Below, in pieces: positions 9,428-26,761 of a stretch of 64,000 nucleotides of DNA (position 1 is its first letter; each line of letters starts with the position of its first letter). Source of the stretch: Alphaproteobacteria bacterium (GTDB lineage Bacteria; Pseudomonadota; Alphaproteobacteria; Micropepsales; Micropepsaceae); contig JANXXU010000028.1 of the NCBI GenBank assembly GCA_025350465.1, positions 1 through 64,000 of the forward strand. The letters run 5' to 3'. Made by a program: the position numbers and the translations under genes. The notes beneath the pieces were generated by a model, which saw only the letters and a list, made by a program, of their open reading frames with translations, ran no database searches and was not told the origin of the DNA.

Positions 9428-9481
9428 TTAAGGCATCGCCGGTTAGATTGCACATTCGATACCAGGATCGAGAGGCGCGCG

Positions 9482-11605: not shown

Positions 11606-12430
11606 ATGCTTTCCGTGAATACCAACTACGGCGCGATGGTTGCGCTGCAGAACTTGAATTCGACCCAAGCGATGCTCGCGCAGACCGACAATCGGATCAG
11701 CACGGGTTTGGCGGTTTCGGGTCCGAAGGATAACGGCGCCGTTTGGGCTGTTGCTCAGAACATGCGTGCGGATGTTGCTTCACTGGCGTCGGTCACCACC
11801 AGCCTTAACAACGCCACCAGCGCAGCCGACGTCGCCGTGTCCGCCGGACAGGCGATTTCAGACCTGTTGACGCAAATGAAGGCGAAAGCGTTGGCCGCTT
11901 CCGACAGTTCGCTCGACGCGAATTCGCGCGCTGCTTACAACGCCGACTTCGTCGCTCTGCGCGATCAGATTTCATCGATCGTGAGCAACGCGAGCTTCAA
12001 CGGCGTGAACCTGATCGACGGTTCGACCCTCAAAGTCGAAGCGCTTGCGAATGCCAAGGGCGACGCCTTCATCACGGTGACGGCGCGCGACTTGTCGCTC
12101 GGCAGCGCCAATGTGACGGTTGCGGCCACGAGTACCGTTTCGACCGCGGCGAAAGCGAGCTCGATGATCTCGACTGTCGAGACCTCGATCAACGCGCTCA
12201 ACTTGGCTCTTGCTCAGCTCGGCACCGACTCCAAGAAGCTCGGCATCCAACAGACGTTCGTGTCGAACCTGTCGGACTCCTTGACGCAAGGTATCGGCAA
12301 TCTGGTCAACGCCGACATGGCCAAAGAAAGTGCCAATTTGACGGCTCTGCAGACGAAGCAGCAGCTTGGCATTCAGGCGTTGTCGATCGCCAATCAGGCG
12401 CCGGCAGCGATCTTGGCGCTCTTTCGGTAA
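11606..12430 (+). CDS. Flagellin (copy 2)
   Basis: This 274-aa paralogue of copy 1 is of exactly the same length. It begins MLSVNTNYGAMVALQNLNST and ends SIANQAPAAILALFR. The two proteins differ mainly in the central 130-200 region and at scattered conservative positions. The ATG at 11606 is preceded by GGAGA. The open frame extends 31 codons upstream, but that part does not resemble flagellin. It is a filament subunit, probably made from its own sigma54-type promoter (11518). The tandem arrangement points to recent duplication or gene conversion. Confidence 0.96.
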   Translation: MLSVNTNYGAMVALQNLNSTQAMLAQTDNRISTGLAVSGPKDNGAVWAVAQNMRADVASLASVTTSLNNATSAADVAVSAGQAISDLLTQMKAKALAASDSSLDANSRAAYNADFVALRDQISSIVSNASFNGVNLIDGSTLKVEALANAKGDAFITVTARDLSLGSANVTVAATSTVSTAAKASSMISTVETSINALNLALAQLGTDSKKLGIQQTFVSNLSDSLTQGIGNLVNADMAKESANLTALQTKQQLGIQALSIANQAPAAILALFR

Positions 12431-12588: not shown

Positions 12589-12942
12589 ATGAATGACTCG
12601 ATCCAGTTGCCTCCAATTTCGCCGGTAGGGCCGCGGCCAACCGCAAAGCGTATCAACGCGACGGCTTCCGCTTCAGTTTCCGCTGTACCGGCAAGCGATT
12701 CGAAACCCAGTCACGCACACGTCGAGACGGCGCAGCCGGTCGAGCCGATTGTCGCGATCGAACCTAGCACCCAGCTGATGATCACGCGCGACGAGGCCGC
12801 GAACACGTTCGTGTATCGTTCGATCGACCGGAAATCCGGCGAGGTCGTTTGGCAGTACCCGGTCGAACAGGTCTTGCGCATGGCGCATCGTCTGCGCGAG
12901 CTCGAAGGTATAGACCAGCATAAAATCGACGCCAAAATTTAG
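12589..12942 (+). CDS. flaG: FlaG-family flagellar protein
   Basis: This 117-aa protein has a disordered N-terminal half rich in Pro, Ser and Ala. The C-terminal half contains FVYRSIDRKSGEVVWQYP and EQVLRMAHRLREL, the signature of FlaG-like proteins found beside flagellins. FlaG influences filament length in other bacteria, but its mechanism is not settled. The position directly after two flagellin genes supports the call. Its stop overlaps the stop of convergent pseC by 4 nt (12939-12942). Confidence 0.75.
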   Translation: MNDSIQLPPISPVGPRPTAKRINATASASVSAVPASDSKPSHAHVETAQPVEPIVAIEPSTQLMITRDEAANTFVYRSIDRKSGEVVWQYPVEQVLRMAHRLRELEGIDQHKIDAKI

Positions 12943-14156
12943 CGTTTGATCGCGCGCTTCAGCGCGCAGACGACGCGGGTGACGTCATCCGTGCTCATCG
13001 CCGGATAAAGCGGCAAGCTCAGGCAGCGGCGATAATATTCGTCCGCACCGGGCAAACGGAGTTTCGGGTTCGCGGCCTGGTAGTATGGTTGGCGATAAAC
13101 CGGAAAATAATGCACCTGCGTGCCGATACCTTGCGCGGCCAACCGCCGCATCAGCGCCGCGCGCTCGATGCCAAGGGCGGCGAAATCGATCAGGGCGACA
13201 TAGAGATGCCACGCGGGCATGACGGCGGGTGTGCGCTTCAGCGGCGCAATATGGGGCGCCAATTGATGCAACATTGCGTCATACGTGGCGGCGAGCACAC
13301 GCCGGCGCGTTACGAAACGATTGAGCTTTGCAAGCTGACTTAGGCCGAGTGCGCAAAGAATATCCGGCACCCGATAATTCAACCCGGGAGCGTCCATCTC
13401 GTAGTACCAAGGATTGGCTTGGCCGGACGCATCGATTGCGTCTTCGGTCTGCGCGAAATCATCGAGGTGACGCGACATGCCGTGATTGCGATCGCGCGCG
13501 ATGAATTTGGCGAGCTTGGTATCGTTTGTAGTGACCGCGCCGCCTTCGCCCATCGCGATCGTCTTCACCGGATGGAAGGAAAAGCACGTCAGGTCGGCAA
13601 AGCGGTTGTCGCCGACGCGATGCAGGGCGTTCTCGACGCTGTATGTCGTGCCGAGCGCGTGGCAAGCGTCGTCGACGATGCGAAGGCTCCGCTTCCGGGC
13701 GAGGTGATGAATTCCGGCGACGTCGCCGCATTGACCGGCCAAGTGGACGTTGATGACGGCGTTGGCCTTGCCGCCCGGACATCGACTGAGTGCTTCAGAG
13801 AGATGCTCAGGCCGCATTAGCCCTGTGTCGGGATCAACGTCGGCGAATACGACGTCGCCCCCGTGCAGGCGAACAGCGTTCGCCGTCGCAAGGAATGTTA
13901 TCGCCGGTACGATGGTGGTTGTGCCAGGGCCGAGATCGAGCGCGCGCGCCGCAAGGTGCAGAGCGGCGGTGCCGTTGGAGCAAGCGACCGCGTGTGCCGC
14001 GCCAGTGACTTCGGCGAGTGCTCCTTCGAATTCGCCGACGCGCGGGCCGGTCGTCAAATAGTCGCTTTGCAGTGCTGCGACGACGGCGGCGATGTCGTCA
14101 TCCTCGATGACTTGACGCCCGTAAGGCAGATATGGCGGTTTGACGCCGGCGTTCAT
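12939..14156 (-). CDS. pseC: PseC-type UDP-4-amino-sugar aminotransferase (PLP)
   Basis: This 405-aa protein belongs to the DegT/DnrJ/EryC1 aminotransferases, with the PLP lysine in CFSFHPVKTIAMGEGG (Lys198) and the NGTAALHLA cofactor loop. PseC aminates the 4-keto sugar made by PseB, producing UDP-4-amino-4,6-dideoxy-N-acetyl-altrosamine in the pseudaminic acid pathway. Its start (14156) overlaps the pseB stop by 4 nt (ATGA), so the two are coupled. Length matches PseC (about 385-405 aa). It is the last gene of a long minus-strand run of sugar genes that begins at 25806. Confidence 0.9.
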   Translation of the reverse strand: MNAGVKPPYLPYGRQVIEDDDIAAVVAALQSDYLTTGPRVGEFEGALAEVTGAAHAVACSNGTAALHLAARALDLGPGTTTIVPAITFLATANAVRLHGGDVVFADVDPDTGLMRPEHLSEALSRCPGGKANAVINVHLAGQCGDVAGIHHLARKRSLRIVDDACHALGTTYSVENALHRVGDNRFADLTCFSFHPVKTIAMGEGGAVTTNDTKLAKFIARDRNHGMSRHLDDFAQTEDAIDASGQANPWYYEMDAPGLNYRVPDILCALGLSQLAKLNRFVTRRRVLAATYDAMLHQLAPHIAPLKRTPAVMPAWHLYVALIDFAALGIERAALMRRLAAQGIGTQVHYFPVYRQPYYQAANPKLRLPGADEYYRRCLSLPLYPAMSTDDVTRVVCALKRAIKR

Positions 14157-15259
14157 GCGAAGGTTTCGGCGAGCATTGTCTGTAGGGCGCGCGCATCGAG
14201 ACGTTCGGGGTTGGCGTCGCTCGAATAGGCAAAGCCCTCCTTGACAGGCTTCGCCGAGCCATTCGCCAAGTATTGTTCACGTTGAACGGGGAAAAAGCTC
14301 GGCAGAATGACGTAGCGATCCTCGAGTTCGAGGGTTTGGCGGGCGTCGTCGGCCGGAATCATGATTTCGTGCAGTTTTTCACCGGGGCGGATGCCGATGG
14401 TTTCTTGGCGCATTTGCGGCGCCATCGATCGTGCCAGCTCGGTGGTGCTCATCGACGGAATCTTGGGAACAAAGATCTCGCCGCCTTGCATCAACTGCAT
14501 CGAGGAGAGCACCAGGTTCACGCCTTGCGTCAGCGTGATCCAAAAGCGCGTCATCCGCGGGTCGGTGATGGGCAAAGCGTCGGCATGCTCGGCGATAAGC
14601 TTTTGGAAAAACGGCATGACACTGCCGCGCGAGCCGACGACGTTGCCATAGCGAACGACACCAAAACGGCAGCCGTCGGCGCCTGATAGATTATTGGCGG
14701 CGACAAAGATCTTATCGGCCGCAAGTTTCGACGCGCCGTAGAGATTGACCGGGTTCGCCGCTTTGTCGGTGGAGAGCGCGATGACGCGCTTGATGCCGCG
14801 CGCAATGGCGGCCTGCACGACGTTTTCGGCCCCGATAACGTTCGTTGCGATGCATTCGAAGGGATTGTATTCGGCGATGGGAACTTGCTTCATCGCTGCG
14901 GCATGCACGACGAAGTCGACGTCGCGCATTGCCATCTCGAGCCGGTCGCGGTTGCGGACGTCGCCGATGAAGTAGCGCATGAACGGAAGCTTCTCTTGCG
15001 GGAAGGTTTGCGCCATCTCGTATTGCTTGAGTTCGTCGCGCGAGAAGATGATCAAGCGCTTGGGCTTGTAGCGGGCGATGACGGTCTTGACGAAATGCTT
15101 TCCGAACGAACCGGTGCCACCGGTGACGAGCACCGTGCGATCGTTCAAATCGATCGCAGGATGAAGGAAGTCGCGCGCCTTTTGAAACGTGCCGTAGGCG
15201 GCAGGCAGCGCTTCGTCATCGTCGGTCGCAAATGGTTGCGGGGCGAGGGCAGGGGTCAT
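14153..15259 (-). CDS. pseB: PseB-type UDP-GlcNAc 4,6-dehydratase (5-inverting)
   Basis: This 368-aa protein is an extended SDR with an NAD-binding TGGTGSFG motif (46-53), a STDKA active-site segment (163-167) and YGASK (174-178). These are typical of inverting dehydratases of the PseB/FlaA1 type. It converts UDP-GlcNAc to the UDP-4-keto-6-deoxy-altrose form, the first step to pseudaminic acid. About 35 extra N-terminal residues precede the usual start of the fold. The start chosen at 15259 has AGGATTCC upstream. An ATG at 15304 would add 15 residues without support. Confidence 0.92.
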   Translation of the reverse strand: MTPALAPQPFATDDDEALPAAYGTFQKARDFLHPAIDLNDRTVLVTGGTGSFGKHFVKTVIARYKPKRLIIFSRDELKQYEMAQTFPQEKLPFMRYFIGDVRNRDRLEMAMRDVDFVVHAAAMKQVPIAEYNPFECIATNVIGAENVVQAAIARGIKRVIALSTDKAANPVNLYGASKLAADKIFVAANNLSGADGCRFGVVRYGNVVGSRGSVMPFFQKLIAEHADALPITDPRMTRFWITLTQGVNLVLSSMQLMQGGEIFVPKIPSMSTTELARSMAPQMRQETIGIRPGEKLHEIMIPADDARQTLELEDRYVILPSFFPVQREQYLANGSAKPVKEGFAYSSDANPERLDARALQTMLAETFA

Positions 15260-15350: not shown

Positions 15351-17297
15351 CTATTGATGAAGTGCTAAGCGGAAGCGGAAGCGGCGCTCACCTGATGGTG
15401 CGGCCTCGGGTTTGCGCGTGTCGTCCATCTCGAGTGCTGACAGCATCAACCGGCAAAAGAGGCTTGCGCCCGAGCGTTCACTTTGGATTAACCCGATCAG
15501 CGGCGCGACGGTTTGATCGACCTCTACGGAAAAGCGGCGTTCGTTGTCGCCGAGATCGATGATGCCTTCGGTAAGGCCGAGGCCCGTCTTCGCCGATACG
15601 AGGAACGAGACTGGAGCGCCATGGTCGATTGCGTGGCCGTTGATGGAGAAGGTTTCGATGTCGCTTCCGCCGTTGTGAGTGCGAAATGACAAGGCTTCGC
15701 AGTCGAAGGCTTCGGGATTGAGCAAGAAATGCCCCAGGCGCAACGAACCGCGGCCCCATTCCTTCCAAGCGAAGGCAAGGTCGAAGTCGACTGTCGGGGA
15801 CGCGGCGCCGAAGCGCATGTTCTTCGCAATCGGGCCGAGAGGCGTCGAGACCCGGCATGCGACGATGACATCGCCGGTTGCCTCCTCGCGCGTGACCGAG
15901 GTGGCCGCCCAATCGAGGTCAGCGATCTTTGGCAACCCAGGCGCCTCGAAGACGCAGTTGCCCGTGTACCAATCGTATTGCAGCTCGATCTTGTCGAAAT
16001 GGCCATGGAGTAGTGAGCCAAGCATCGGCGGGCGATTGTCGCCCGCGATTTTAATTTCGTGAATCGCACAACCGCGCCGGCGATTGAGCACGGCGGTGAG
16101 GGCGGGGGTTTCGATCTCGATCCAACGCTGATCGGTTCGAGCATCCGTGAGGAGCGTCGGCGTGGCGTAGGACGGCTTCGTCGGAACATATTGCGCTTCA
16201 ATTCCGCTTAGCCGCTCGCGATAGGTCTTCCATCTTTTGTCGGTGATGTGGGTGCGGAAGTCGCTCGACCAAAGGTAGCAAAGTTCACGCCACGCTTCGG
16301 GCGTTTCCACATTGTCTTCGACGAGCGCGTTGTAGATGCGGTGGCATGCGGCATTGACGGCAAGGTCGTCGCGACCCGACACCGCCCAACGCGTGACGTT
16401 GTATTTCGGCTGTTTCTTGACGGGAATCGGATAGTCGGGTGTTTCAAGCGTCAACAATGTGTTTGCGTGCGGACCGCCGTTGGCGGCGAGTGCTTGCGAG
16501 GGCGAGACGAAATTGAGTCCCGGTACATGTGTCAACGTGCGCCAGGCGGCAGCGATGCGTGCCCATTCGTTGCCGGTGAGCGCTTCCTCCGTGTTGAAGC
16601 GGCCAGGCCGGAAATCGAAGGTCTCTGCGTCGTTACTGTAGAGAGGCAGGATGCGCGGCATCAACCCGCGTTGGCCGGCGACAAAATTCAGATAGTCGCG
16701 AAGCTCGATATCGCCGTGCGCGAAACGCTGAAGCTTCTGAAACGCCATCGTGTGCGTCCAAAGCAACCCTATTTCGCTGCCGCCCGAACCGCGTGCGCGC
16801 TGCGGATGATAGCGCAGCTCTCCGTCCCACTCGGGATGACAGCTCGCGACATTGTCCCAATCCATGAGCACGCCGTCATATCCGGCCTCGCGGTAAAGCG
16901 GGACGAGGCCGCCGGAATAGGCTTGCTCGTTGATCAATGCGACCTTCGGCGTGACGCCGACAAGGCGCCGGTAGACGTCGTGCCCAAGACGGAGATTCGC
17001 TTTGTTCACGCGCGCCGGCACAAGGGGTCCGATGATCTGGGCGTAGCCGGAGCCGACGAATTCGACTTTACCGCTTGCCGTCAGTCGCCTCAGCTCGGCA
17101 ATCCATGCGGGGTCGAGTTGGTCGACGACCTCAAGCGTGTAGCCCGTCGCTTCAATTGCGATGGGCGCACCGATGACGTCGGGCAGGCGCAGCATCGGCC
17201 AATAGCAACGCTCGATCACCTGCGGGCGCTGCTCTTCCTCGATCGAGGAGAAAGCGAGGTTCAAGTGAAAAAGCGCGAAGAGGTCGAGCACGCTCAC
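15351..17297 (-). CDS. Glycoside hydrolase family 57-like protein in glycan operon
   Basis: This 648-aa protein shows the conserved GH57 regions in order: FHLNLAF (His11); GKVEFVGSGYAQIIGPLVP (76-94), like region 2; INEQAYSGG with Glu124 at the nucleophile position; and YSNDAETFDF with Asp223 at the acid/base position. The C-terminal half (about 400-640) looks like a beta-sandwich domain. GH57 enzymes act on alpha-glucans and other alpha-linked glycans. The substrate here is unknown. There is no signal peptide, so action is probably cytosolic. Its start overlaps the formyltransferase stop by 4 nt. It is the last gene of the coupled core. Confidence 0.75.
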   Translation of the reverse strand: MSVLDLFALFHLNLAFSSIEEEQRPQVIERCYWPMLRLPDVIGAPIAIEATGYTLEVVDQLDPAWIAELRRLTASGKVEFVGSGYAQIIGPLVPARVNKANLRLGHDVYRRLVGVTPKVALINEQAYSGGLVPLYREAGYDGVLMDWDNVASCHPEWDGELRYHPQRARGSGGSEIGLLWTHTMAFQKLQRFAHGDIELRDYLNFVAGQRGLMPRILPLYSNDAETFDFRPGRFNTEEALTGNEWARIAAAWRTLTHVPGLNFVSPSQALAANGGPHANTLLTLETPDYPIPVKKQPKYNVTRWAVSGRDDLAVNAACHRIYNALVEDNVETPEAWRELCYLWSSDFRTHITDKRWKTYRERLSGIEAQYVPTKPSYATPTLLTDARTDQRWIEIETPALTAVLNRRRGCAIHEIKIAGDNRPPMLGSLLHGHFDKIELQYDWYTGNCVFEAPGLPKIADLDWAATSVTREEATGDVIVACRVSTPLGPIAKNMRFGAASPTVDFDLAFAWKEWGRGSLRLGHFLLNPEAFDCEALSFRTHNGGSDIETFSINGHAIDHGAPVSFLVSAKTGLGLTEGIIDLGDNERRFSVEVDQTVAPLIGLIQSERSGASLFCRLMLSALEMDDTRKPEAAPSGERRFRFRLALHQ

Positions 17298-18253
17298 GCG
17301 CTCACCAATTGGCCGAAGCGCATGCGCGGCTTTATCCCGGCATCAAGCGGCGAGCCTTCGGCTTTGTCGTTCCACTGTACGCGCGTGAGATTGAGGAGAC
17401 CCTTGCCCGTCGCGACGATGGCGCCGTGGTCGTCGACTGCCAGGACTTCGCCCGGCGCGCCTGCGAGCGGCAGGGTGGCGCGCTCGGCCGACCATATGAA
17501 TAGTTTGCGATCTTGCTGAAACGTAAAGGCGCCGGGATAGGGATGCGTCAATGCGCGAATCCAGTTGTAGAGCCCGCGAGCATCACGAGTCCAATCGATG
17601 ACGCCGTCTTCCGGGCGGCGACGCGGCCATGTGGTCACATCCGTTTCGCCCTGCTTGATGCGATGGGCCCTGCTGGCGGCGAGAAGCGGTAGCGATTTGC
17701 AGAGAAGCTGTGCGGCGATTTCGTCGGTGCGGGCGCCGAGCGTCGAGGCCGTGTCGGAATCAAGGATGGGCACATGCTGTTGCGCCAGGATGTCGCCGGT
17801 GTCGACGCCCGGATCGGCATAGAACCACGTTACGCCCGTCCCCTCGAGGTCGAGGATAATCGCCCATGGGATTGGAGCACGGCCTCGACCTTGCGGCAGC
17901 AATGTCGGATGCATGCCGATGAAGCCGAGCGCGGGAAGTGTGAGGAGTTCAGACGGAATGAGTTCGGAGACGCCGCAAACGATGCCGAGGCGCGGCGCGG
18001 TATGCTTAGCCCACTCAAAATGCATTCGGCCCTCTTCGCCCTTGAGCGAGGAGAAGGAGCGGGCATCTAGATTGTAACGCGAAATGATGTCGTCGAATTG
18101 CGTGTGTGCGACGGTCGTCTGGGCCTTGCAATCGTCAAGGTAGAGAAGGCCGGCGATCGAAGCGCCGCTCTCGAGCGCGGCCGTCAAGCATTGTTTGCCG
18201 ACGATACGCGCGGCGACGAACAGGATCGGCATGTCGCGCAAGGTGTTGGTCAT
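17294..18253 (-). CDS. Formyltransferase family protein (Fmt/ArnA-N-like), probable sugar N-formyltransferase
   Basis: This 319-aa protein has the formyl-tetrahydrofolate-dependent fold, visible as GMHPTLLPQGRGRAPIPWA (113-131) and FYADPGVDTGDI (144-155). His115 and Asp151 occupy catalytic positions. The Asn of the usual N-x-H triad is Gly113, which is odd. A C-terminal OB-like domain follows from about 210. It starts at 18253, where ATGA overlaps the deacetylase stop. A tRNA formylation role is less likely because of the sugar-gene context. N-formylation of a nucleotide amino-sugar is the inferred role. Confidence 0.8.
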   Translation of the reverse strand: MTNTLRDMPILFVAARIVGKQCLTAALESGASIAGLLYLDDCKAQTTVAHTQFDDIISRYNLDARSFSSLKGEEGRMHFEWAKHTAPRLGIVCGVSELIPSELLTLPALGFIGMHPTLLPQGRGRAPIPWAIILDLEGTGVTWFYADPGVDTGDILAQQHVPILDSDTASTLGARTDEIAAQLLCKSLPLLAASRAHRIKQGETDVTTWPRRRPEDGVIDWTRDARGLYNWIRALTHPYPGAFTFQQDRKLFIWSAERATLPLAGAPGEVLAVDDHGAIVATGKGLLNLTRVQWNDKAEGSPLDAGIKPRMRFGQLVSA

Positions 18254-18915
18254 CGAACGATCTCGCGCAGCAATTCGAAGGGCTCTGCGGAAGACAGACC
18301 TACATGAGTGCCCCATGCAACCGCACGGGCGCGGATCGCGTCCAGCGAGCGGGCGTGTGGGAAGGGACGTAGTTCACCCTCGTAACATGCCATCGCTTTC
18401 AATTTTGTTTCGAGCGTGGCGCTTGCATCGATGAACACGGTCGGCGCGAACGGCGCGGCGGATGGATTCCAATCGGTTGCCGAAGGAACATCGAAGGCGA
18501 GGATGCGCTTGGCGGGCGCGCCGGGTGTCGGGCGAAACGCGGTGGCGACGGCGCGTGCCGTTACCTCATGGTCGATATTCAGATCGCGCGCGTGATGGGT
18601 GTAGATGACTTCAGGTGCGACCCGGGCTGCAATGTCTTCGATCGTTTTCACGACATCGAGGAGCGCGACCGTATCCATGCGATTGTCCGCGAAGCCGGCA
18701 AAGCGCAGATCGGCGACGCCGAGAATGGCGCCGGCTTTCTCGGCTTGATGGCGTAGTGCGCGATGAGCGTCGGTCGTGACAGGCCCGCGCGAGTCGAGGC
18801 CCGTCGCTAAGATCAAGACGGTGACCTTGTCGCCGGCCTTGGCATGGCGCGCGATCGCGACGCCGGCGCCCAGCACTTCGTCATCGGGATGCGCGGCGAC
18901 GACGAGAACGTTCAT
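18250..18915 (-). CDS. PIG-L family N-deacetylase
   Basis: This 221-aa protein opens MNVLVVAAHPDDEVLGAG, carrying the zinc motif AHPDDE (His9, Asp12) with the third histidine in THHARDLNIDH. PIG-L (LmbE-like) enzymes remove acetyl groups from GlcNAc-type sugars. Here it would expose an amine on a sugar intermediate, which the neighbouring formyltransferase or ATP-grasp enzyme could then modify. That link is inference from gene order. Both ends overlap neighbours by 4 nt (ATGA), so translation is coupled with the ATP-grasp gene and the formyltransferase gene. Confidence 0.9.
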   Translation of the reverse strand: MNVLVVAAHPDDEVLGAGVAIARHAKAGDKVTVLILATGLDSRGPVTTDAHRALRHQAEKAGAILGVADLRFAGFADNRMDTVALLDVVKTIEDIAARVAPEVIYTHHARDLNIDHEVTARAVATAFRPTPGAPAKRILAFDVPSATDWNPSAAPFAPTVFIDASATLETKLKAMACYEGELRPFPHARSLDAIRARAVAWGTHVGLSSAEPFELLREIVR

Positions 18916-20132
18916 GCCGCCACCGTTTCGATCTTGAGGGCTGCCAGAGCACGTGCAGCGTTCGTGCGTGCCGCGGCGAGGCTTGCACCCGTGGCCAGAA
19001 CCATCGCAGCCGTGCAGTTGGAATCTGTCGGTGTGCGGATCGTGTCGCCTGGCTTTACCGTGACGAGCAATTCCTCGATGCCGGGAAGGGCGCGGGCTTC
19101 GTCCGTGCCGGCAACGCGCGTCACGCGGCCTGGTGCCGGAAACGCGTAACGCTGCACGACTGGCGTGAATGTCTTGGGGGTCAAATCGGCCGCCGATACA
19201 GGCATACCGAGGGCCAGCTTGATCACGGCGCCGATGAAATCGATGCCGGTGTTGAGCGGAATTTCACGCGTGCAGAAGTATCCGCCGGAGGCGCGTGCCG
19301 CGAGTTCGATCACGTGCGGCTTGCCGTCGACGACGACCATATCGCCTTTGATATTGCCGGTGGTGATGCCGAGAGCCCGGCCCGCGGCTTCGGCGGTGCG
19401 CTTTACGGCTTCCTGAATTTTAAGCGGCAGATGGCTGGGCAGGTCGCCGCCATTCTCGATGAAATAGGGCGCGTAGCGCTCGAGATGTTCGTAGTTGCGA
19501 TCCGAAAAACCCGGTGTGAAGCCCAGTCCATCGATGAGGATCGATTCCGTCGATACCTGCGGACCAGCGAGGAATTCCTCGATCATCACGCGGCGCGTCG
19601 GGGACTGCGCCGCGGCACGCTCCCATACTTCGCCGAGATTCAAACCTGGCCGTAACCTTTGCACGCCGCGGCCGCCGCGGCTGTCGACTGGCTTGACGAC
19701 GAGAGCGTCGCCCCGTTCGGCGACGATGCGCTCCAACGTTGTCGGGGAAGGCAGTGGCGCGAACCACGGAACAGGAATGCCGGCGGCGACGAAGCGCTGC
19801 TTCATCGCCAGCTTGTCCTGGGCAAGACACGCCGCTTCGAGTGGAATGCCGGGAATGCGCAAGCGATGCGCGACGGTTGCAACCGTCAGCGGTACATCGG
19901 CGCCGATAGTGATCACGCCATCGATCGGGCGCACGGTGCGGTGATAGTGCTCGGCAGCTGCGGCCGTCGCGTCGGCATCGTAAGTCGAGGCGATCAAGCG
20001 ATCATCGGCCAGGGCAAAGCCGGGCGCTTCCGGGTTCATATCGCTCACCACGACATGACAGCCGAGTTCTTTGGCACGGCGAACGCCATGTGTTGCTTCA
20101 ATGCCGCCGGAAACGATCAACAAGGTCTTCAA
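18912..20132 (-). CDS. ATP-grasp ligase in glycan operon, TTG start
   Basis: This 406-aa protein has a Rossmann-like N-terminal domain (KTLLIVSGGIEATHGVRRAK), an ATP-grasp core with KPVDSRGGRGVQ and EEFLAGPQVSTESI, and a metal-binding end VIELAARASGGYF. It resembles biotin-carboxylase-like or amino-acid ligases that make amide bonds with ATP. The substrate is unknown. The proposed start is TTG at 20132, which forms a TTGA overlap with the SDR stop and has GGGGGA 8 nt upstream. The open frame continues far upstream inside the SDR gene, but that part is a shadow frame. Confidence 0.82.
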   Translation of the reverse strand: MKTLLIVSGGIEATHGVRRAKELGCHVVVSDMNPEAPGFALADDRLIASTYDADATAAAAEHYHRTVRPIDGVITIGADVPLTVATVAHRLRIPGIPLEAACLAQDKLAMKQRFVAAGIPVPWFAPLPSPTTLERIVAERGDALVVKPVDSRGGRGVQRLRPGLNLGEVWERAAAQSPTRRVMIEEFLAGPQVSTESILIDGLGFTPGFSDRNYEHLERYAPYFIENGGDLPSHLPLKIQEAVKRTAEAAGRALGITTGNIKGDMVVVDGKPHVIELAARASGGYFCTREIPLNTGIDFIGAVIKLALGMPVSAADLTPKTFTPVVQRYAFPAPGRVTRVAGTDEARALPGIEELLVTVKPGDTIRTPTDSNCTAAMVLATGASLAAARTNAARALAALKIETVAA

Positions 20133-20863
20133 AAATAGAGTCCCCCGTTGACGTTGATCGTTTGGGCGGTGATGTAGCGCGCCGCGTCGCTTGCGAGGAA
20201 CGCGACGGCGTCGGCGACTTCGTCCGCGGTGCCCAAGCGGCCGAGCACAATATTCTCCGCAGCCTTGGCGACGGCCGGCGCGGCCATGCCGGCGGCCGCC
20301 ATTTCCGATTGGATAAGCCCCGCTGCGACGACATTCGAGCGGATGTTCCATTTGGCGCCAAAGCGCGCGATCACTTGGGAAAGAGAGATCAAGCCCGCTT
20401 TCGACGCCGCGTAGTGGGCCGTGCGCGGGCCACCGTATTGGCCGCTGACCGAACCGATGTGAACGATCGATCCGCCGCCGGCGCGGCGTAAGTGCGGCAA
20501 CGCAAGCTGCGAGCAGATAAACGGGCCCTTCAGATTGACGCCGAGGATTTCGTCCCAATCGTCGTCTACGATTTGGTCGAAATCCGTCGGCTTGTTGATA
20601 CCGGCATTGTTTACAAGGATCGAGAGTGACCCAAGCTTTGCCAATGCGGTTTCGATCGCGCCCTGCACGCTGTTGCGGTTGGTGACTTCCATTTCGATTG
20701 CGACGGCGCCGGTTTCGCGTGCGACGACGTCCGCTTGCGTCCGCGTGGCCCGGTAGGTGAAGGCGACGCGGGCACCTGCGTCCGCCAGTTTCTTGACGAT
20801 CGCCTTGCCGATGCCGCGGCTGCCGCCGGTGACGAAGGCGGTACGCCCTTGGAGCAAGCTCAT
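20129..20863 (-). CDS. Short-chain dehydrogenase/reductase (FabG-like)
   Basis: This 244-aa classical SDR has the cofactor motif TGGSRGIG (12-19), NNAG (85-88) and the catalytic YAASK (Tyr151, Lys155). It ends with the typical ITAQTINVNGGLYF. It reduces or oxidises a keto or hydroxyl group with NAD(P). In this operon it probably acts on the product of the adjacent transketolase pair or another sugar intermediate (inference). It overlaps the transketolase C-subunit gene by 4 nt upstream and the ATP-grasp gene by 4 nt downstream. A fatty-acid role is unlikely from context. Confidence 0.88.
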   Translation of the reverse strand: MSLLQGRTAFVTGGSRGIGKAIVKKLADAGARVAFTYRATRTQADVVARETGAVAIEMEVTNRNSVQGAIETALAKLGSLSILVNNAGINKPTDFDQIVDDDWDEILGVNLKGPFICSQLALPHLRRAGGGSIVHIGSVSGQYGGPRTAHYAASKAGLISLSQVIARFGAKWNIRSNVVAAGLIQSEMAAAGMAAPAVAKAAENIVLGRLGTADEVADAVAFLASDAARYITAQTINVNGGLYF

Positions 20864-21846
20864 CGGCGCAGGCTTTCCTTGCGTGCAATTGCCCGGCGCG
20901 CGGCAGCGGCGATGTGTGGCGCTGTCAAGCCGTAGAACTCCGCAAGCTCTTGCGGTTCGCCCGATTGGCCGAATTGATCGCGGACGCCGACGAATTCGAT
21001 CGGGCAGGGCTGTGTCTGTGCAATCGCTTCGGCGACGGCGCCGCCGAGACCGCCAAAGATGTTGTGGTCTTCGGCCGTGACAATGCAGCCCGTGTCGACC
21101 GACGCCTCGGCGAGGATGGCGCTGTCGATCGGTTTGATAGTCGGCATATTGATGACACGTGCGGAGATCTTTGCGGCCGCGAGAAGATCGGCGGCTTCGA
21201 GAGCACGCGAAACTTCAACGCCGCAGGCGACAAGCGAAACATCGCGCCCGTCGCGTAGCATCTGTCCAACTCCGATTTCGAATTTGTGCGCCGGTCCGAA
21301 GAGGCGGGTAGAGGCGCTGCGGCCGGTGCGCATATAGACGGGGCCCTCGAAGTCGAGAATTGCGCGCGTCGCCTGGCGCATTTCTTCGGGGTCGGCGGGC
21401 GAGATCACCGTCATCCCAGGTATGGCACGGAACGCGGCAAGGTCTTCGAGCGCCTGCGCCGAGCCGCCGTCCGGTCCGACGTCGATACCGGGATGGCTTG
21501 CGACGATCTTGACGTTGCGCTTGGCGTAGGCGATCGAGAGGCGCGCTTGTTCGATGGCGCGCAAGCAGAAAACGGCAAACGTCGTGACGACGGGGACGAG
21601 GCCGGTCGCCGCCATGCCGCCGGCGGCGGCCATCATGTTCTGCTCGGCGATGCCGAACTGAAAGAAACGATGCGGCAGCGCCTTGCGAAAATGGTGGACG
21701 CCCGTGCCGCCGGCGATATCGGCGTCGAGCACAACAACCCGAGGCCGTTCGCGCGACCATTCCACGAGCGCTTTGCCGAACGCCTCGCGCAGCGAATCGC
21801 CGCTGGTGCCGATGAGTTGCGGCGCCGCTCTTTCAACCACGGCCAT
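20860..21846 (-). CDS. Transketolase, C-terminal subunit (split form)
   Basis: This 328-aa protein corresponds to the pyrimidine-binding and C-terminal domains of transketolase. It has FQFGIAEQNMMAAAGGMAATG (Glu of the TPP-activating site), SHPGIDVGPDGGSAQALEDLA and a C-terminal VRDQFGQSGEPQEL. The partner N-terminal subunit lies immediately upstream (21833-22741) and overlaps it by 14 nt. Together they would form an alpha2beta2 TPP enzyme that moves two-carbon ketol units. Split transketolases occur in sugar-biosynthesis clusters as well as in central metabolism. Here the former is more likely. Confidence 0.9.
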   Translation of the reverse strand: MAVVERAAPQLIGTSGDSLREAFGKALVEWSRERPRVVVLDADIAGGTGVHHFRKALPHRFFQFGIAEQNMMAAAGGMAATGLVPVVTTFAVFCLRAIEQARLSIAYAKRNVKIVASHPGIDVGPDGGSAQALEDLAAFRAIPGMTVISPADPEEMRQATRAILDFEGPVYMRTGRSASTRLFGPAHKFEIGVGQMLRDGRDVSLVACGVEVSRALEAADLLAAAKISARVINMPTIKPIDSAILAEASVDTGCIVTAEDHNIFGGLGGAVAEAIAQTQPCPIEFVGVRDQFGQSGEPQELAEFYGLTAPHIAAAARRAIARKESLRR

Positions 21847-22741
21847 TGAGCAATCCCTCGGCTTTGGCCGGATCGGTGTCGAGTGAGGTGAGCGCGGATG
21901 TGATCTGCTCCGGCGTCAGCTTTACGCTGCCGTGCCATTGCGGATGATCTTCCATATACGGCACGCCCTTACCCTTGGTCGTGTGCGCGATAATGATCGT
22001 CGGTAAGGTGCGCTCGTTGCGCGCCGCCTCGAAGGCCGCCAAGAGCCCGGCGACGTCGTGGCCGTTGATCTCAAGTGTGTTCCAGCCGAACGCCCGCCAT
22101 TTTTGCGCAAGCGGTTCAAGCCCCATGATCGCGGCGTTGCGGTCGTCGGACTGCAGTTTGTTGTAGTCGATGACGGCGCAGAGATTGGCGAGGCCATAAT
22201 GCGCGGCGCACATCGCGCCCTCCCAGACTTCGCCTTCCTGCATCTCGCCATCGCCGAGAAGCGCATAGACGCGCGGCGCGCGACCTTGCTGGCGGAGACC
22301 CATCGCCATGCCGATCGAAACCGAGAAACCCTGACCGAGCGAGCCGGTGCTGGATTCCGCCAAGGGACAATCCAGAACGTGCGGATGTCCCTGAGCGCGG
22401 CTGCCGAGCTTGCGCAGCGTCAATGCTTCGGCACGCGACATCAGTCCGAAGGCGGCCCAGGTCGCGTAAAGCGCCGGCGCCGCGTGACCCTTCGACAGCA
22501 CGAAGAGATCGCGGTCGATATCGGGATGATCGGCATGCGGCAGGTTCAGGACGGTGCCGTAGAGAACGGCGAGAATATCGGCGCATGACAATGAGCCGCC
22601 CGGGTGTCCCGAACCGGCATGATAGATCGCGGCAACCGACAGGCGACGAATTTCGCGGGCAATGGCTTCGAGCTGGGTGACACGGCGATCGCGCGGACCG
22701 GCCGCTTCGTGCAGCTCGGCGACTTGAAGCGTGGCGTTCAT
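21833..22741 (-). CDS. Transketolase, N-terminal (TPP-binding) subunit
   Basis: This 302-aa protein has HAGSGHPGGSLS near residue 41, the substrate and TPP histidine segment SKGHAAPALYA, and the TPP-metal motif GDGEMQEGEVWEGA (163-176) ending in Asn194. It is about half the length of a full transketolase, and the remainder is encoded by the overlapping next gene. The start at 22741 is the first that gives a family-like N-terminus. The open frame reaches 22855 but overlaps the methyltransferase gene. The probable role is two-carbon transfer to a sugar intermediate in the glycan pathway. Confidence 0.9.
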   Translation of the reverse strand: MNATLQVAELHEAAGPRDRRVTQLEAIAREIRRLSVAAIYHAGSGHPGGSLSCADILAVLYGTVLNLPHADHPDIDRDLFVLSKGHAAPALYATWAAFGLMSRAEALTLRKLGSRAQGHPHVLDCPLAESSTGSLGQGFSVSIGMAMGLRQQGRAPRVYALLGDGEMQEGEVWEGAMCAAHYGLANLCAVIDYNKLQSDDRNAAIMGLEPLAQKWRAFGWNTLEINGHDVAGLLAAFEAARNERTLPTIIIAHTTKGKGVPYMEDHPQWHGSVKLTPEQITSALTSLDTDPAKAEGLLNGRG

Positions 22742-22751
22742 TGTTCTCGCC

Positions 22752-23924
22752 TCACGCCGCAATGTGGGTTTTGGCGCGGGCCAAGAGATCGGCGTAGGCG
22801 ATGACCTCGCAACCAGGCACGCGAACCTGGGCCTCTTGGCGAATCTCGCTCGCAAAACTGCGTGACATGACGACCACGACGTCGGGCTTGAGATTTGCCA
22901 AATCCGTCGGCGCGGTCAGCCTGATGCCATGTGCGTCTTGCGCGTAGCGGATGAGATGCTTGTCGACGACGGCGGTCAGGGAGGCGGGCTTCAGGCCGCC
23001 GTTTTGAATGAGGCTGTTGAGCAGGCGACCGGCGCCCCACACGGCAACTTTGCGCGGCGCCATCGCGTCGATCATCCGAGCAACGGACGTGAGCGCGGCA
23101 AGGTTCTGAAGGCGTACAGCGTGATAGGAGGAGATCAACGCTGTCGCCGATTCAACCTCGCGAATATCGGATTCGATCGGCGCGGCCCCGGCGTCCGTTT
23201 TTACGGCGACAATCGTAATGTTCACCGAATCGCGCGGATCGGCGACGGCGACGGCACGAAAACCGCTCGCTGCGAGCAGACGCGCCAGTACGCGCGCGGA
23301 GAAATGATAAAGGTGCTTGTCGATGAAGAACTCCTCGACGATATCGTTCAGGCCGATCATCGCCAGGTTGGGAACCTCGAGCAGCAAGTGGCCGTGGGGC
23401 TTGAGCGTTTCCCAATGATGGCGCAGTGCGTCGCGTGCGCTCTTCACATGCTCGAGGGTGTGGCAGGAATAGACGAGATCGAAAGCGTCGGCTTCCAGCC
23501 GCGTGTCTTCGAGCCGCGCGTGCAGCCAAGTGAAGCCCGGCTTGCCCGCCCAAGCGCCCACAACTCGTTCATCGGGCTCGATGCCGATGATCTCGGCATT
23601 GGGGTAAGCGGTGCTCAATTCCAGCGCGAAGGCGCCGCGGCTGGCGCCGACGTCGAGTACGCGAAGCGGCCGGCGCTTCGGCAAGAAGGGCTTGAGCGTC
23701 GATAGATTCGCTTCGGCGCGAAAGCCTTTGCCGTAACGGACATTGCCCCAGTCGGCATCGGCCGACACGGAGGCCTTGGCGCGGGGAGCATGATCGATAC
23801 GCGGCAGGCTTTGGACGAGACCGCAATGCGTGCAGAGCCAGACGGTCAGCTTCCGCGTGGAGCCCTGCGGCGCGTAGACTCGTTCGAGCGCCGCGTTGCC
23901 GCACAGGTCGCACGTTTCGGACAT
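22752..23924 (-). CDS. SAM-dependent C-methyltransferase-like protein with zinc-binding N-terminus
   Basis: This 390-aa protein has an N-terminal four-cysteine zinc site (Cys5, Cys8, Cys31, Cys34) and a SAM-binding core LRVLDVGASRGAFALEL. Its C-terminal Rossmann-like domain has VAVWGAGRLLNSLI. This three-part layout matches the sugar C-methyltransferase family (Methyltransf_13/14 type, for example NovU or TylC3). Those enzymes methylate keto-sugars, so a role in building a branched deoxysugar fits the operon. It ends 10 nt before the transketolase N-subunit start. Confidence 0.85.
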   Translation of the reverse strand: MSETCDLCGNAALERVYAPQGSTRKLTVWLCTHCGLVQSLPRIDHAPRAKASVSADADWGNVRYGKGFRAEANLSTLKPFLPKRRPLRVLDVGASRGAFALELSTAYPNAEIIGIEPDERVVGAWAGKPGFTWLHARLEDTRLEADAFDLVYSCHTLEHVKSARDALRHHWETLKPHGHLLLEVPNLAMIGLNDIVEEFFIDKHLYHFSARVLARLLAASGFRAVAVADPRDSVNITIVAVKTDAGAAPIESDIREVESATALISSYHAVRLQNLAALTSVARMIDAMAPRKVAVWGAGRLLNSLIQNGGLKPASLTAVVDKHLIRYAQDAHGIRLTAPTDLANLKPDVVVVMSRSFASEIRQEAQVRVPGCEVIAYADLLARAKTHIAA

Positions 23925-24004: not shown

Positions 24005-24850
24005 CTAAGAGCCGCGATAGGCGACGCGGTACTCGGGCCTTTCGTGATACCCGAATGTGCGCATCATGCCGCCGGCGAGGTGCCAGAACTGATCTGTCTG
24101 CTTGGGCTTCAGCGGATAGTCTTCCGGGCGGTTCACGTTGTGCGGGCGCGCCAGGAGGCCCGCGACGCGATCGTCCCAAGGCAGTCCCAAAAAGTTAAGA
24201 AGACATTGACGCTCGGTCGCGCGGCCGACGATGTCTTCCAGGCGAACGAGATGTTTGCGCGCCGCGGGCACCGCCTCAAGATCGCGCATGATGACGCGAT
24301 TGATCTCGCACCAGTGATAGACAATGCGCTCGAATTGATCGAAGCGGCGGAATTCTGCCGCGCGAGGATCGTCGCGACGGGGCAACGGCCACCAGTATTT
24401 CTTTTCAGGCGGCGGCGCCGGCAGCGCACCATCGGCATCGTAGAACGCCTGCAGCGCCGTTGTTGAACTATCGTCGTAGCACTCGGCGCCAAGCTTGTGA
24501 AAATACGAGCTCGCGACCTTGCGGCCGTCGCGTACCAGATGCACAAAGCGCGCCGTCGGAAACAGGCGGTTGAGCAGGGGTATCAGCCACGACAGTTTGT
24601 TCGAAGCGTCGCCCCAGAAGGGAGCGTCGGAATAGAGCACGCCCGCTTTGTGCGTTGCGCGCAAAATTTCGGTCGCTTGCTGCGCATTGATGAGACCCAT
24701 TTGAAAACGGACCGCGGCCGGTTGGACGTGTTGCACCATGTATTCGTGGTGCATGTCGACCTGCGGGAAGACGCCGAAGAGACGCTCCATCATGGCGGTG
24801 CCTGAGCGCCCGGAGGACACAATAAAGAAGGGCTGTGTCGCCTCTGTCAT
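24005..24850 (-). CDS. Sulfotransferase family protein
   Basis: This 281-aa protein has the 5'-phosphosulfate-binding loop SSGRSGT (12-18) and the 3'-phosphate-binding segment VRDGRKVASSYFHK (about 109-122), the two signatures of PAPS-dependent sulfotransferases. It would transfer sulfate to a hydroxyl or amine of a sugar or other acceptor. The acceptor is unknown. The start overlaps the stop of the upstream methyltransferase (TGATG at 24848-24852), so the two are coupled. An 80-nt gap separates it from the next gene, which may contain a further promoter. Confidence 0.85.
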   Translation of the reverse strand: MTEATQPFFIVSSGRSGTAMMERLFGVFPQVDMHHEYMVQHVQPAAVRFQMGLINAQQATEILRATHKAGVLYSDAPFWGDASNKLSWLIPLLNRLFPTARFVHLVRDGRKVASSYFHKLGAECYDDSSTTALQAFYDADGALPAPPPEKKYWWPLPRRDDPRAAEFRRFDQFERIVYHWCEINRVIMRDLEAVPAARKHLVRLEDIVGRATERQCLLNFLGLPWDDRVAGLLARPHNVNRPEDYPLKPKQTDQFWHLAGGMMRTFGYHERPEYRVAYRGS

Positions 24851-25806
24851 CAGCGGGCGAATTTCGGTTTGCGGGCAATGACGATGGCCTCACGGCCAAG
24901 GCCTGCGTTCGCCAGGGCACGATAGAACTTGCGGCGCGTGTCGCCCATCCCGGCCTTTTCGAGCGAAAGGTCGAAGCGTTTTCGCCTCGCGTGGCAATCC
25001 TTACCGACCGTGTCGTTGCCGACATAGTTCTCGCCCATGAGCAAGAACAGCTCCATAGGGAAGCTCGTCATCGTGTCGACGATCTCCAGGTCGAGACGGC
25101 CGAGCAGATCTTCGAGCGAGGTGAAGTTCAGGTAGTTCAAGTGATGCGGCGGCACGAGCCACCACGGCTCCTCGCCGTTCCTGCGCACAGCTTGCTGGAA
25201 GCCGTTGTAATCGTTGGGGACGCCGACGCAGACGATGCCGCCTGGTCTCGTCGCGCCGATGGCGAGCTGGAGCAGCGCGATCGGATCGGCCACGTGTTCC
25301 AACATGTTGTTGAGGTGCACGACGTGGGCCGGCTGAACGCAGGCGGCCGTCGTTTCGTCGAACATGACGTTGGCGACGTTAAGACCTAGGCTCTGCGCGT
25401 GCGCCGCGGCTTGTTCGGATGGCTCTATGCCGCGCGCCTGCCAGCCTCGGGCAACCGCCGCGCTCAAGAACCAACCGGGGCCACAGCCGATGTCGAGCAC
25501 GTGCAAGGGCTTGCGTTCGCCAGCCAGCAACTCCTCGAACAGCGTCAGCCTGTCGTTCCACGCCAGTTTCGACCAGTCGGCATCGTCACGCGCGCGGGCC
25601 AAATAATTCGGCTTTTCGTCGCGATAATAGGCCTGACTATAGGCGGCCTTGAGCGCGTCGGGCTTCGGCAGCGGCAAGACGTGGCGGAAGCCGCACGGCT
25701 CGCAGTCGATGATCTTGTAGCCCTTGACCTCGTCCAGCAGGGGGCCGTGATGCTCCCCGTCGCGGACAATTGGCTCCCTCGTCCGAGCCGCCGTCGCTGC
25801 ACGCAT
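24850..25806 (-). CDS. Class I SAM-dependent methyltransferase
   Basis: This 318-aa protein has the SAM motif I sequence VLDIGCGPG (103-111), an acidic motif II area (ARGIEPSEQ) and NMLEHVADP typical of class I methyltransferases found in glycan clusters. A CxxC pair near the N-terminus (Cys35, Cys38) suggests a remnant of a zinc-binding segment. The substrate is unknown, probably a sugar or a lipid-linked glycan. It is the first gene of the long minus-strand glycan run and is divergent from the sialic-acid-synthase-like gene, sharing an 84-nt promoter region. Confidence 0.82.
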   Translation of the reverse strand: MRAATAARTREPIVRDGEHHGPLLDEVKGYKIIDCEPCGFRHVLPLPKPDALKAAYSQAYYRDEKPNYLARARDDADWSKLAWNDRLTLFEELLAGERKPLHVLDIGCGPGWFLSAAVARGWQARGIEPSEQAAAHAQSLGLNVANVMFDETTAACVQPAHVVHLNNMLEHVADPIALLQLAIGATRPGGIVCVGVPNDYNGFQQAVRRNGEEPWWLVPPHHLNYLNFTSLEDLLGRLDLEIVDTMTSFPMELFLLMGENYVGNDTVGKDCHARRKRFDLSLEKAGMGDTRRKFYRALANAGLGREAIVIARKPKFAR

Positions 25807-25867: not shown

Positions 25868-25890
25868 CCGTTGCGTTGGGGTCGGCGTTC

Positions 25891-26757
25891 ATGGCGTGCT
25901 TGTTCATTGCCGAGGTGTCGAGCAATCACGACCGCGACCTCGACCGGGCGTTCGCGTTCATCGACCGGGCGGCGGAAATCGGCTGCGGCGCGGTCAAATT
26001 CCAGCTGTTCAAGATCGACGAGATGTTCGCGCCTGAGATTTTGGCGCAAAGCGCCAAGCACCGGGCGCGGCGCGAATGGGAACTGCCCGTCTCGTTCCTG
26101 GCGCCGATTGCCGAACAGTGTAAAGCGCGCGGCGTTCAGTTCATCTGCACACCGTTCTATCTCAAGGCGGTCGAAGAGCTTCTACCGCATGTCGCGGCCT
26201 ATAAGATCGCATCTTACGAGTTGATGTGGGACGCGTTGCTCAAAGTCTGCGCCGAGACAGGCAAGCCCATCATCCTGTCCTGCGGCATGGCGACACTCGA
26301 TGAGGTTCGCCACGCAAGCGACGTCTTGCGCCGGCATGGCGCGCGCGATGTCACGTTACTGCATACGATTTCCGCTTATCCGACGCCGGTGGGCGAGGCC
26401 AATCTCGCCGCAATGAAGACCATCGCCGAGGCCACGGGTTATCCGTGCGGCTGGTCGGATCACACGGTTTCGCCGGGCGTGATCCTGCGCGCGGTCGATC
26501 GCTGGCGCGCGCCGATGGTCGAATTCCATCTCGATCTCGATCGCGCAGGTGCCGAATACGCCGCCGGGCATTGCTGGCTGCCGGAAGAAATGGCGCCGGT
26601 GATCGCGATGGTGCGCGACGGCGAGCGTGCCGATGGTGATGGCATTAAACGCGCAAGCCCAAGCGAGCTTCCCGATCGCGATTGGCGCGCCGATCCTGCG
26701 GACGGATTGCGTCCGCTCAAACATATTCGCCGCAATTGGCGGCCCGAGGCGGCGTGA
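25891..26757 (+). CDS. pseI: PseI/NeuB-family nonulosonic acid synthase lacking the SAF domain
   Basis: This 288-aa protein is a NeuB-type TIM barrel: MACLFIAEVSSNHDRDLDRA, GAVKFQLFK, the ICTPFYLKAVE segment, LSCGMATLDE and GWSDHT. These enzymes condense phosphoenolpyruvate with a six-carbon amino-sugar to make sialic, legionaminic or pseudaminic acid. With pseB, pseC, pseF and pseG present, pseudaminic acid is the best guess. Typical members have about 345 residues with a C-terminal SAF (antifreeze-like) domain, which is absent here. ATG 25891 is preferred over an upstream in-frame TTG at 25876. It is followed 4 nt later by the pseF-pseG fusion. Confidence 0.82.
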   Translation: MACLFIAEVSSNHDRDLDRAFAFIDRAAEIGCGAVKFQLFKIDEMFAPEILAQSAKHRARREWELPVSFLAPIAEQCKARGVQFICTPFYLKAVEELLPHVAAYKIASYELMWDALLKVCAETGKPIILSCGMATLDEVRHASDVLRRHGARDVTLLHTISAYPTPVGEANLAAMKTIAEATGYPCGWSDHTVSPGVILRAVDRWRAPMVEFHLDLDRAGAEYAAGHCWLPEEMAPVIAMVRDGERADGDGIKRASPSELPDRDWRADPADGLRPLKHIRRNWRPEAA

Positions 26758-26761
26758 AGCC

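Follow-up and report, generated by a model that had tools for sequence, protein, structure and literature searches.

In a 64,000-nucleotide stretch of an alphaproteobacterial genome (Micropepsaceae; GenBank assembly GCA_025350465.1, contig JANXXU010000028.1, positions 1 to 64,000, hereafter the window), a run of overlapping minus-strand genes between flagellin and pseudaminic acid genes contains a conserved unit of carboligase, reductase, ATP-grasp ligase and GH57-type glycoside hydrolase, which stands beside the NeuB/PseF-PseG and pseB/pseC genes. The carboligase slot of this unit is filled in related loci by at least five enzyme types, namely a split transketolase, an acetolactate synthase (ALS)-like enzyme, a DXS-like enzyme, an FSA-type aldolase, or a second NeuB together with a thiamine diphosphate (ThDP) decarboxylase. 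The functional unit is the carboligase, the reductase and the ATP-grasp enzyme, which GH57 accompanies very often. We give a probability of about one half to the reading that a polyhydroxy acid is the joint product of carboligase and reductase, which the ATP-grasp enzyme links as an amide to the pseudaminic acid amine otherwise acetylated by PseH.

An earlier note, made from the sequence of the window, had described seven translationally coupled genes as the core of the island. All seven are indeed present between the flagellin and the pse/neuB genes, with successive overlaps of 14, 4, 4, 4, 4 and 4 nt, and each of the seven families, assigned from Pfam and NCBIfam, scores above its Pfam gathering cut-off. 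That the products form a stoichiometric unit, as the note had it, is a claim beyond what overlaps can show, and the co-directional run is itself longer than seven genes, as it includes two methyltransferases (MT2 and MT1) and a sulfotransferase upstream (25806-22752) and pseB and pseC downstream (15259-12939). The seven genes, listed in the order of the minus strand, are:

21833..22741, minus strand: TkN, N-terminal chain of a split transketolase with the ThDP-binding domain (PF00456, 6.3e-48)
20860..21846, minus strand: TkC, C-terminal chain of the split transketolase with the pyrimidine-binding and C domains (PF02779, PF02780)
20129..20863, minus strand: FabG-like short-chain dehydrogenase/reductase (SDR) (PF13561, 6.5e-58; Ser-Tyr-Lys motif intact)
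18912..20132, minus strand: ATP-grasp carboxylate-amine ligase of the L-amino-acid-ligase type (LAL_C2, PF18603, 5.4e-22; PF02655); its start codon is TTG and overlaps the SDR stop
18250..18915, minus strand: PIG-L/BshB-like N-deacetylase, accessory (PF02585, 5.5e-24; AHPDDE zinc motif intact)
17294..18253, minus strand: formyltransferase, accessory (PF00551, PF02911)
15351..17297, minus strand: enzyme with a GH57-type glycoside hydrolase fold (PF03065, 2.5e-14; C-terminal beta-sandwich)

Within the Alphaproteobacteria, the GH57 protein was found in 10 of 385 genomes and the ATP-grasp protein, by profile search, in 11, among which are all 10 GH57 genomes. Genomes with both proteins span 7 families (co-occurrence 6e-19, assuming independent genomes), and in those carrying the module the order pseC-pseB-GH57-ATP-grasp-SDR-TkC-TkN-MT1-sulfotransferase-MT2, facing NeuB-PseF/G and located by flagellin genes, is largely kept. 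A scan of the genomes of 84,980 species with a profile built from the ATP-grasp alignment yielded 80 related loci (designated L with a number; counts over them were made after removal of contigs present twice). These come chiefly from Alphaproteobacteria, but Delta- and Gammaproteobacteria, Acidobacteriota, Nitrospinota, Verrucomicrobiota and others are also represented, and some names of metagenome-assembled genomes (MAGs) may be binning errors. In the gammaproteobacterial order to which genome G671 belongs, 2 of 198 genomes contain the ATP-grasp protein. The search for a conserved gene order which the note had proposed was thus rewarded, as MT2-sulfotransferase-MT1-TkN-TkC-SDR-ATP-grasp-GH57-pseB-pseC recurs in dozens of loci. 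Transketolase genes are present in 60 of the 80 loci, the SDR in 59 of those 60, and GH57 in 72. L051, from Alphaproteobacteria bacterium SO-S41 (AP024629), is one example of the transketolase version.

The note had further regarded relatives unlinked to flagellar or pse genes as evidence against a role in flagellin decoration. The loci examined favour linkage: across many families the genes stay close to those for flagellin and nonulosonates, and in most loci having enough flank the module has as its neighbour flagellin, flbT or a transferase for flagellin of the FlmG or Maf type; a few free-standing transketolase-(SDR)-ATP-grasp operons with no flagellar genes (L105, L112) depart from this. 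The overlaps are conserved as well: TkC and SDR overlap by exactly 4 nt in 27 of 43 junctions, SDR and ATP-grasp by 1 or 4 nt in 44 of 47, and ATP-grasp and GH57 by 4 nt in 31 of 49 (a set which holds six contigs twice), all of which is far above the 12 of 336 that unrelated neighbours on the same strand give in these loci.

The PIG-L and formyltransferase genes do not belong to the conserved core. The pair was found in 3 of the 80 loci, and given this rarity the seven-gene core was dropped in favour of five genes plus a two-gene cassette. In the window, L034 and L038 the cassette separates ATP-grasp from GH57, and in L089 (a Desulfuromonadaceae MAG) it follows ATP-grasp, after which the contig ends. 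The proposal of the note that PIG-L bares the acceptor amine was likewise rejected for the core pathway, as the pair is missing from 77 of 80 loci and PseC already makes a free amine. The cassette suggests instead an optional exchange of N-acetyl for N-formyl, judging from the predicted families. A weakness of this idea is that Gly stands in the formyltransferase at the position of the catalytic Asn of ArnA; in the alignment to ArnA, the His and Asp of the N-H-D triad are kept and the Asn is replaced in all four copies. The subfamily (window:17294-18253) carries FIGMHPT.LP.GRGRAPIPWA in place of the usual N-x-H motif, again in all four copies, each of which lies by PIG-L.

Loci without the transketolase pair usually have another enzyme that makes or cleaves carbon-carbon bonds in its place, nearly always with a reductase. 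ALS-like ThDP enzymes, most of them accompanied by an SDR, occupy the slot in L013, L020, L087, L097, L098, L099, L103 and L119. The gammaproteobacterial L136 has an enzyme of the DXS family (TIGR00204 above cut-off) and an SDR, in a module between a pse cluster and apparent flagellar regulatory and fliE/fliF genes. In five deltaproteobacterial loci the slot holds an FSA-type aldolase (TIGR00875 above cut-off) with zinc-dependent alcohol dehydrogenases, and in L085 the aldolase is paired with an SDR. L135 contains a second NeuB with SAF domain, a split ThDP enzyme resembling sulfopyruvate/phosphonopyruvate decarboxylase and an iron-dependent alcohol dehydrogenase, and L086 a decarboxylase fragment with NeuB. 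In L059, L095, L096 and L101 the ATP-grasp gene has no carboligase next to it. Tentatively, these exchanges point to a widespread modular platform in which non-homologous carbon-carbon bond-forming enzymes are swapped before one conserved ATP-grasp and GH57 pair, which would yield various polyhydroxy-acid tails amide-linked to flagellin pseudaminic acid. As a general rule, an interchangeable carboligase slot is undescribed in the open-licence literature searched, in which we also found nothing linking flagellin with transketolase or transaldolase; the combinatorial acyl chemistry that such a platform would produce is not described for nonulosonic acids.

The transketolase of the window is a dedicated second copy. 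A canonical transketolase is encoded on another contig of the source genome, and a housekeeping role for the split enzyme was rejected on this ground. The nearest solved relatives of its chains are those of the split transketolase of Carboxydothermus (6yaj for TkC, 4.8e-93; 6yak for TkN, 9.8e-80), which likewise consists of two chains. The GDGE ThDP motif is present in 42 of 43 TkN sequences and the equivalents of the catalytic Glu E366 and of the donor-binding residues H416 and D424 in 53 of 53 TkC sequences. The phosphate-binding set Arg/Ser/His/Arg is incomplete, in that both Arg and the His are kept and the Ser is replaced by Gly in 52 of 53 TkC sequences, a difference from the Carboxydothermus enzyme. 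By reference to the residues of human transketolase, we take this Ser to be a substrate phosphate contact; its replacement hints at an altered substrate.

The ATP-grasp protein passes the cut-offs of both PF02655 and LAL_C2 (PF18603) and is thus of the L-amino acid ligase type; its closest solved relative is the L-amino acid ligase BL00235 (3vot, 1e-28), with BacD also among the nearest. In L085 (4027-6410) and L068 (485-2967) two more ATP-grasp genes stand in tandem upstream of the module, those of L085 with LAL_C2 domains, and possibly serve a second acyl addition. The AlphaFold model of the GH57 protein (pLDDT, the predicted local distance difference test, 93) shows a confident GH57 barrel with a Z-score of 33.6 to a GH57 amylopullulanase. 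Its catalytic residues Glu124 and Asp223 align to E123 and D214 of the Thermococcus litoralis glucanotransferase and are invariant in 39 relatives. As GH57 occurs with every carboligase type and also without one, we suggest that it handles something common to all versions; that it releases the sugar-acid acceptor is a guess.

The genes flanking the seven are as follows; the plus strand carries NeuB and the PseF-PseG fusion to the right and, to the left, flaG, two flagellin genes and flbT, beyond which a gene on the minus strand encodes a tetratricopeptide repeat (TPR) protein:

7600..9312, minus strand: candidate FlmG-type flagellin glycosyltransferase (TPR superhelix, residues 30-266; GT-B-like domain, residues 274-570)
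9467..9907, plus strand: flbT, flagellin regulator (PF07378, 5e-44)
10436..11260, plus strand: flagellin 1 (Pfam flagellin N and C domains)
11606..12430, plus strand: flagellin 2 (Pfam flagellin N and C domains)
12589..12942, plus strand: flaG (PF03646, 2.2e-6)
12939..14156, minus strand: pseC aminotransferase (TIGR03588, 459.6 bits, cut-off 423.5)
14153..15259, minus strand: pseB dehydratase (TIGR03589, 518.4 bits, cut-off 407.75)
22752..23924, minus strand: MT1, S-adenosylmethionine (SAM) methyltransferase with a C-terminal Methyltransf_14-like part (PF13489, PF08484)
24005..24850, minus strand: sulfotransferase (PF13469, 2.2e-17)
24850..25806, minus strand: MT2, SAM methyltransferase (PF13489, 9.8e-23)
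25876..26757, plus strand: NeuB-family nonulosonate synthase, 293 aa (PF03102, 3.1e-55; PseI model 153.9 bits, below cut-off)
26750..28567, plus strand: fusion of a cytidylyltransferase (PseF role) and a PseG-like hydrolase (PF02348; TIGR03590, 94.1 bits over residues 258-516, below cut-off)

PseB and PseC pass their equivalog cut-offs, whereas NeuB, PseG and PseF fall in the right superfamilies yet below theirs (bits/cut-off: PseI 153.9/340, PseG 94.1/153.6, PseF 26.6/205.7), and a Pfam search gave no SAF domain match in the NeuB-family synthase. The minus-strand TPR protein by flbT is a candidate flagellin O-glycosyltransferase of the FlmG class, given its predicted TPR and GT-B architecture and its flagellar locus; FlmG of Caulobacter has the same architecture (PMC7591256). 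In its AlphaFold model (pLDDT 90), the whole length matches the SPINDLY and OGT structures and the C-terminal part the GT9 transferase 3tov (Z 18.2). In many relatives PseG stands next to another FlmG-like TPR transferase, which is shorter (about 510 aa) and shows 30% identity, e.g. L043:998-2560, L012:3106-4629 and L015:14287-15816; the copy next to flbT is the only one in the window.

From gene content, conserved order, motifs, folds and the exchange of the carboligase we infer the reactions, the acceptor and the amide linkage of the following route to an N-acylated sugar of the pseudaminic acid type. PseB and PseC would make the 4-amino sugar, and NeuB and the PseF-PseG fusion the activated nonulosonate. 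The amine derived from PseC would not be acetylated; a polyhydroxylated acid would be made instead, to which end the split transketolase would extend an aldehyde acceptor by a two-carbon ketol unit, giving a ketone for the SDR to reduce. The ATP-grasp enzyme would then activate the carboxylate of this acid and couple it to the amine as an amide, the methyltransferases and the sulfotransferase would decorate the sugar, and the FlmG-type transferase would place it on flagellin. GH57 may act on a glycosidic intermediate that all versions share and might thereby free the sugar-acid acceptor, which is the least certain step, and the optional PIG-L and formyltransferase cassette might replace N-acetyl by N-formyl. 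Addition and subsequent reduction of a two-carbon unit, as the note had supposed, is still the best reading because an SDR follows the carboligase in nearly all loci and the transketolase keeps its ThDP and catalytic residues. The branch on the sugar envisaged there is less likely than an extension of the acyl group, which is favoured because the FSA-type aldolase and the DXS-like enzyme share the slot and both act on aldehydes.

The closest parallel is the sfmABCDE operon of Shewanella oneidensis, which is required for flagellin modification and encodes a 290-aa NeuB-like protein (SfmA), a ThDP enzyme, an SDR of the 3-oxoacyl-reductase type, a SAM methyltransferase and an ATP-grasp protein; deletion of each gene shifts the flagellin mass (PMC3765264). 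The inner part of the glycan is a 274 Da mono-N-acetyl pseudaminic acid-like sugar which keeps a basic amine once the outer part is lost, and the outer residue of 236-264 Da is nitrogen-free, bears O-methyl groups, has the formula C9H16O7, C10H18O7 or C11H20O7 and was left unsolved in 2013; the authors found no clear orthologues of PseH, PseG, PseI or PseF and mention no GH57 gene beside sfm (PMC3765264). Both systems have a short NeuB-like synthase (293 aa in the window), a ThDP carboligase-type enzyme, a FabG-like SDR, a SAM methyltransferase and an ATP-grasp protein in a flagellar context, as well as pseB/pseC. Likened by published descriptions rather than by sequence, the sfmABCDE set is the ALS version of the module. 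The system of the window is best described as working like the Sfm pathway yet cannot be counted as a member of it, since the defining ilvB/ALS-like enzyme is replaced by the split transketolase; it further adds GH57, a sulfotransferase, a second methyltransferase and the PIG-L and formyltransferase pair, and has an FlmG-type instead of a Maf transferase.

The comparison can be extended to the masses. A C6H10O7 acid plus C2H4O and H2, with one to three methyl groups, gives exactly the three published formulae of the Shewanella outer residue, which is suggestive but no proof. If the lightest form had zero or two methyl groups, its precursor would have to be C7H12O7 or C5H8O7, neither of which is, to our knowledge, a common metabolite. 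As transketolase adds C2H4O2, the product in the window would be one oxygen heavier than that of the ALS version. With a C6H10O7 acid as acceptor, the calculated increment for the transketolase version is 512.185 Da before methylation, or 498.170 Da with N-formyl instead of N-acetyl; each methyl would add 14.016 and a sulfate 79.957. An acyl group with free hydroxyls may leave as a lactone, which would account for the absence of an oxonium ion and for the amine being retained.

A different use of carboligase and reductase is known from enzymes of the YerE type, where a ThDP enzyme and a reductase add a two-carbon unit in nucleoside diphosphate-sugar biosynthesis, a likeness to the window. YerE acts on a 4-ketosugar nucleotide, is not homologous to transketolase at family level and has, as far as we know, no ATP-grasp partner. 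By analogy, carboligase and SDR could make a two-carbon-branched or chain-extended sugar linked glycosidically to pseudaminic acid, the ATP-grasp enzyme acting separately, e.g. by placing an amino acid on the amine. The two-carbon branch goes back to the earlier note, and this reading is consistent with the ready loss in source of the S. oneidensis outer residue, as is usual for glycosidic sugars, and with the fact that a keto-heptose plus hydroxyethyl also yields C9H18O8. We consider it unlikely, as the operon has no additional conserved glycosyltransferase, FSA and DXS take aldehyde acceptors, and the ATP-grasp protein accompanies carboligase and reductase even outside nonulosonate loci (L105, L112); the lack of an oxonium ion of the outer residue and the basic amine retained on the inner part would suit an amide that loses a lactone.

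The relationship to BL00235 and BacD would also suit an ATP-grasp enzyme that attaches an amino acid like the classical L-amino acid ligases, with carboligase and reductase making its side chain or an unrelated decoration. A precedent is the type B flagellin cluster of Clostridioides difficile, which like the window has an ATP-grasp gene and an amino sugar with an amide-linked cap, but in which the cap is a taurine-containing peptide on Fuc3N and for which no module with transketolase, NeuB or GH57 has been described (PMC5207245, PMC5207246). With an ATP-grasp gene in a cluster for an amide-capped amino sugar, it also speaks for the amide-linked polyhydroxy acid. The outer residue of S. oneidensis contains no nitrogen and the carboligase of transketolase loci has no conserved aminotransferase beside it, which makes attachment of an amino acid improbable. 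Least probable of all is that the glycan decorates another surface structure, such as lipopolysaccharide or capsule, and that the flagellar neighbourhood is incidental: L095 and L096 do adjoin general glycosyltransferases and L105 and L112 have no flagellar genes, but most loci with enough flank place the module by flagellin, flbT or a flagellin transferase, and sfm deletions abolish flagellin modification in S. oneidensis.

Several points weigh against the amide-linked polyhydroxy acid itself. L095 and L096 hold ATP-grasp and GH57 with no adjoining carboligase. The activities and products of the module genes are predictions from sequence, the GH57 step is conjectural, the formyltransferase lacks its catalytic Asn, and the correspondence with SfmA-E was judged from published descriptions. 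A C6H10O7 acceptor is not unique, as C9H18O8 or C7H14O8 with other methyl counts fit too, so that a hexuronic acid is just one solution of the arithmetic. PseH above cut-off was found in none of 10 module genomes, though just 1 of 240 genomes of the class reaches it; among genomes positive for PseB, it was detected in 9 of about 57 that lack the module and in 0 of 8 that carry it, a non-significant difference for a protein weakly detected class-wide, and its loss was dropped as proof of a replaced acetyltransferase. Finally, a UDP-sugar dehydrogenase was found in 8 of 9 genomes tested, and the source of glucuronate is not guaranteed because the ninth, G004, carries the module and gave no hit; PseB was not found in G004 either, though the genome is rated 100% complete. 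This might reflect an assembly gap or different precursors in that organism. In G140 the PseB and UDP-sugar dehydrogenase genes are no more than about 3 kb apart, and a single missing stretch in G004 is thus possible.

The comparison provides a concrete proposal for the outer flagellin residue of S. oneidensis that can be tested by mass, and shows that a similar type of pathway with other bond-forming enzymes exists in many flagellated bacteria. If the proposal holds, nonulosonic acid biosynthesis would gain a branch for acyl synthesis, and the orphan paralogues of transketolase, DXS and aldolase found in flagellar islands would acquire functions. The synthesis of sugar acids could then draw on interchangeable carboligases of natural origin. 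The FlmA-B-H-D-NeuB-FlmC/FlmG system of Caulobacter crescentus resembles the window in its pseudaminic acid-type precursor made by PseB, PseC and NeuB and in a TPR and GT-B transferase by flagellar genes including flbT, but it uses the acetyltransferase FlmH, and the published pathway is without a carboligase/ATP-grasp/GH57 module (PMC7591256).

Some loci carry further genes. A 401-aa protein with no Pfam match is encoded between ATP-grasp and GH57 in L098 (2225-3430), and L068 has a 394-aa gene at the equivalent position, with no clear similarity between the two. Next to the module of L092 (12958-21086, a Magnetovibrio MAG) lie extra transketolase-like, SDR and E1-like genes and a cytidylyltransferase-like gene on the opposite strand. 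Deltaproteobacterial loci, e.g. L107:11212-12738, place a B12-binding radical SAM enzyme between ATP-grasp and GH57 and a Maf transferase after GH57.

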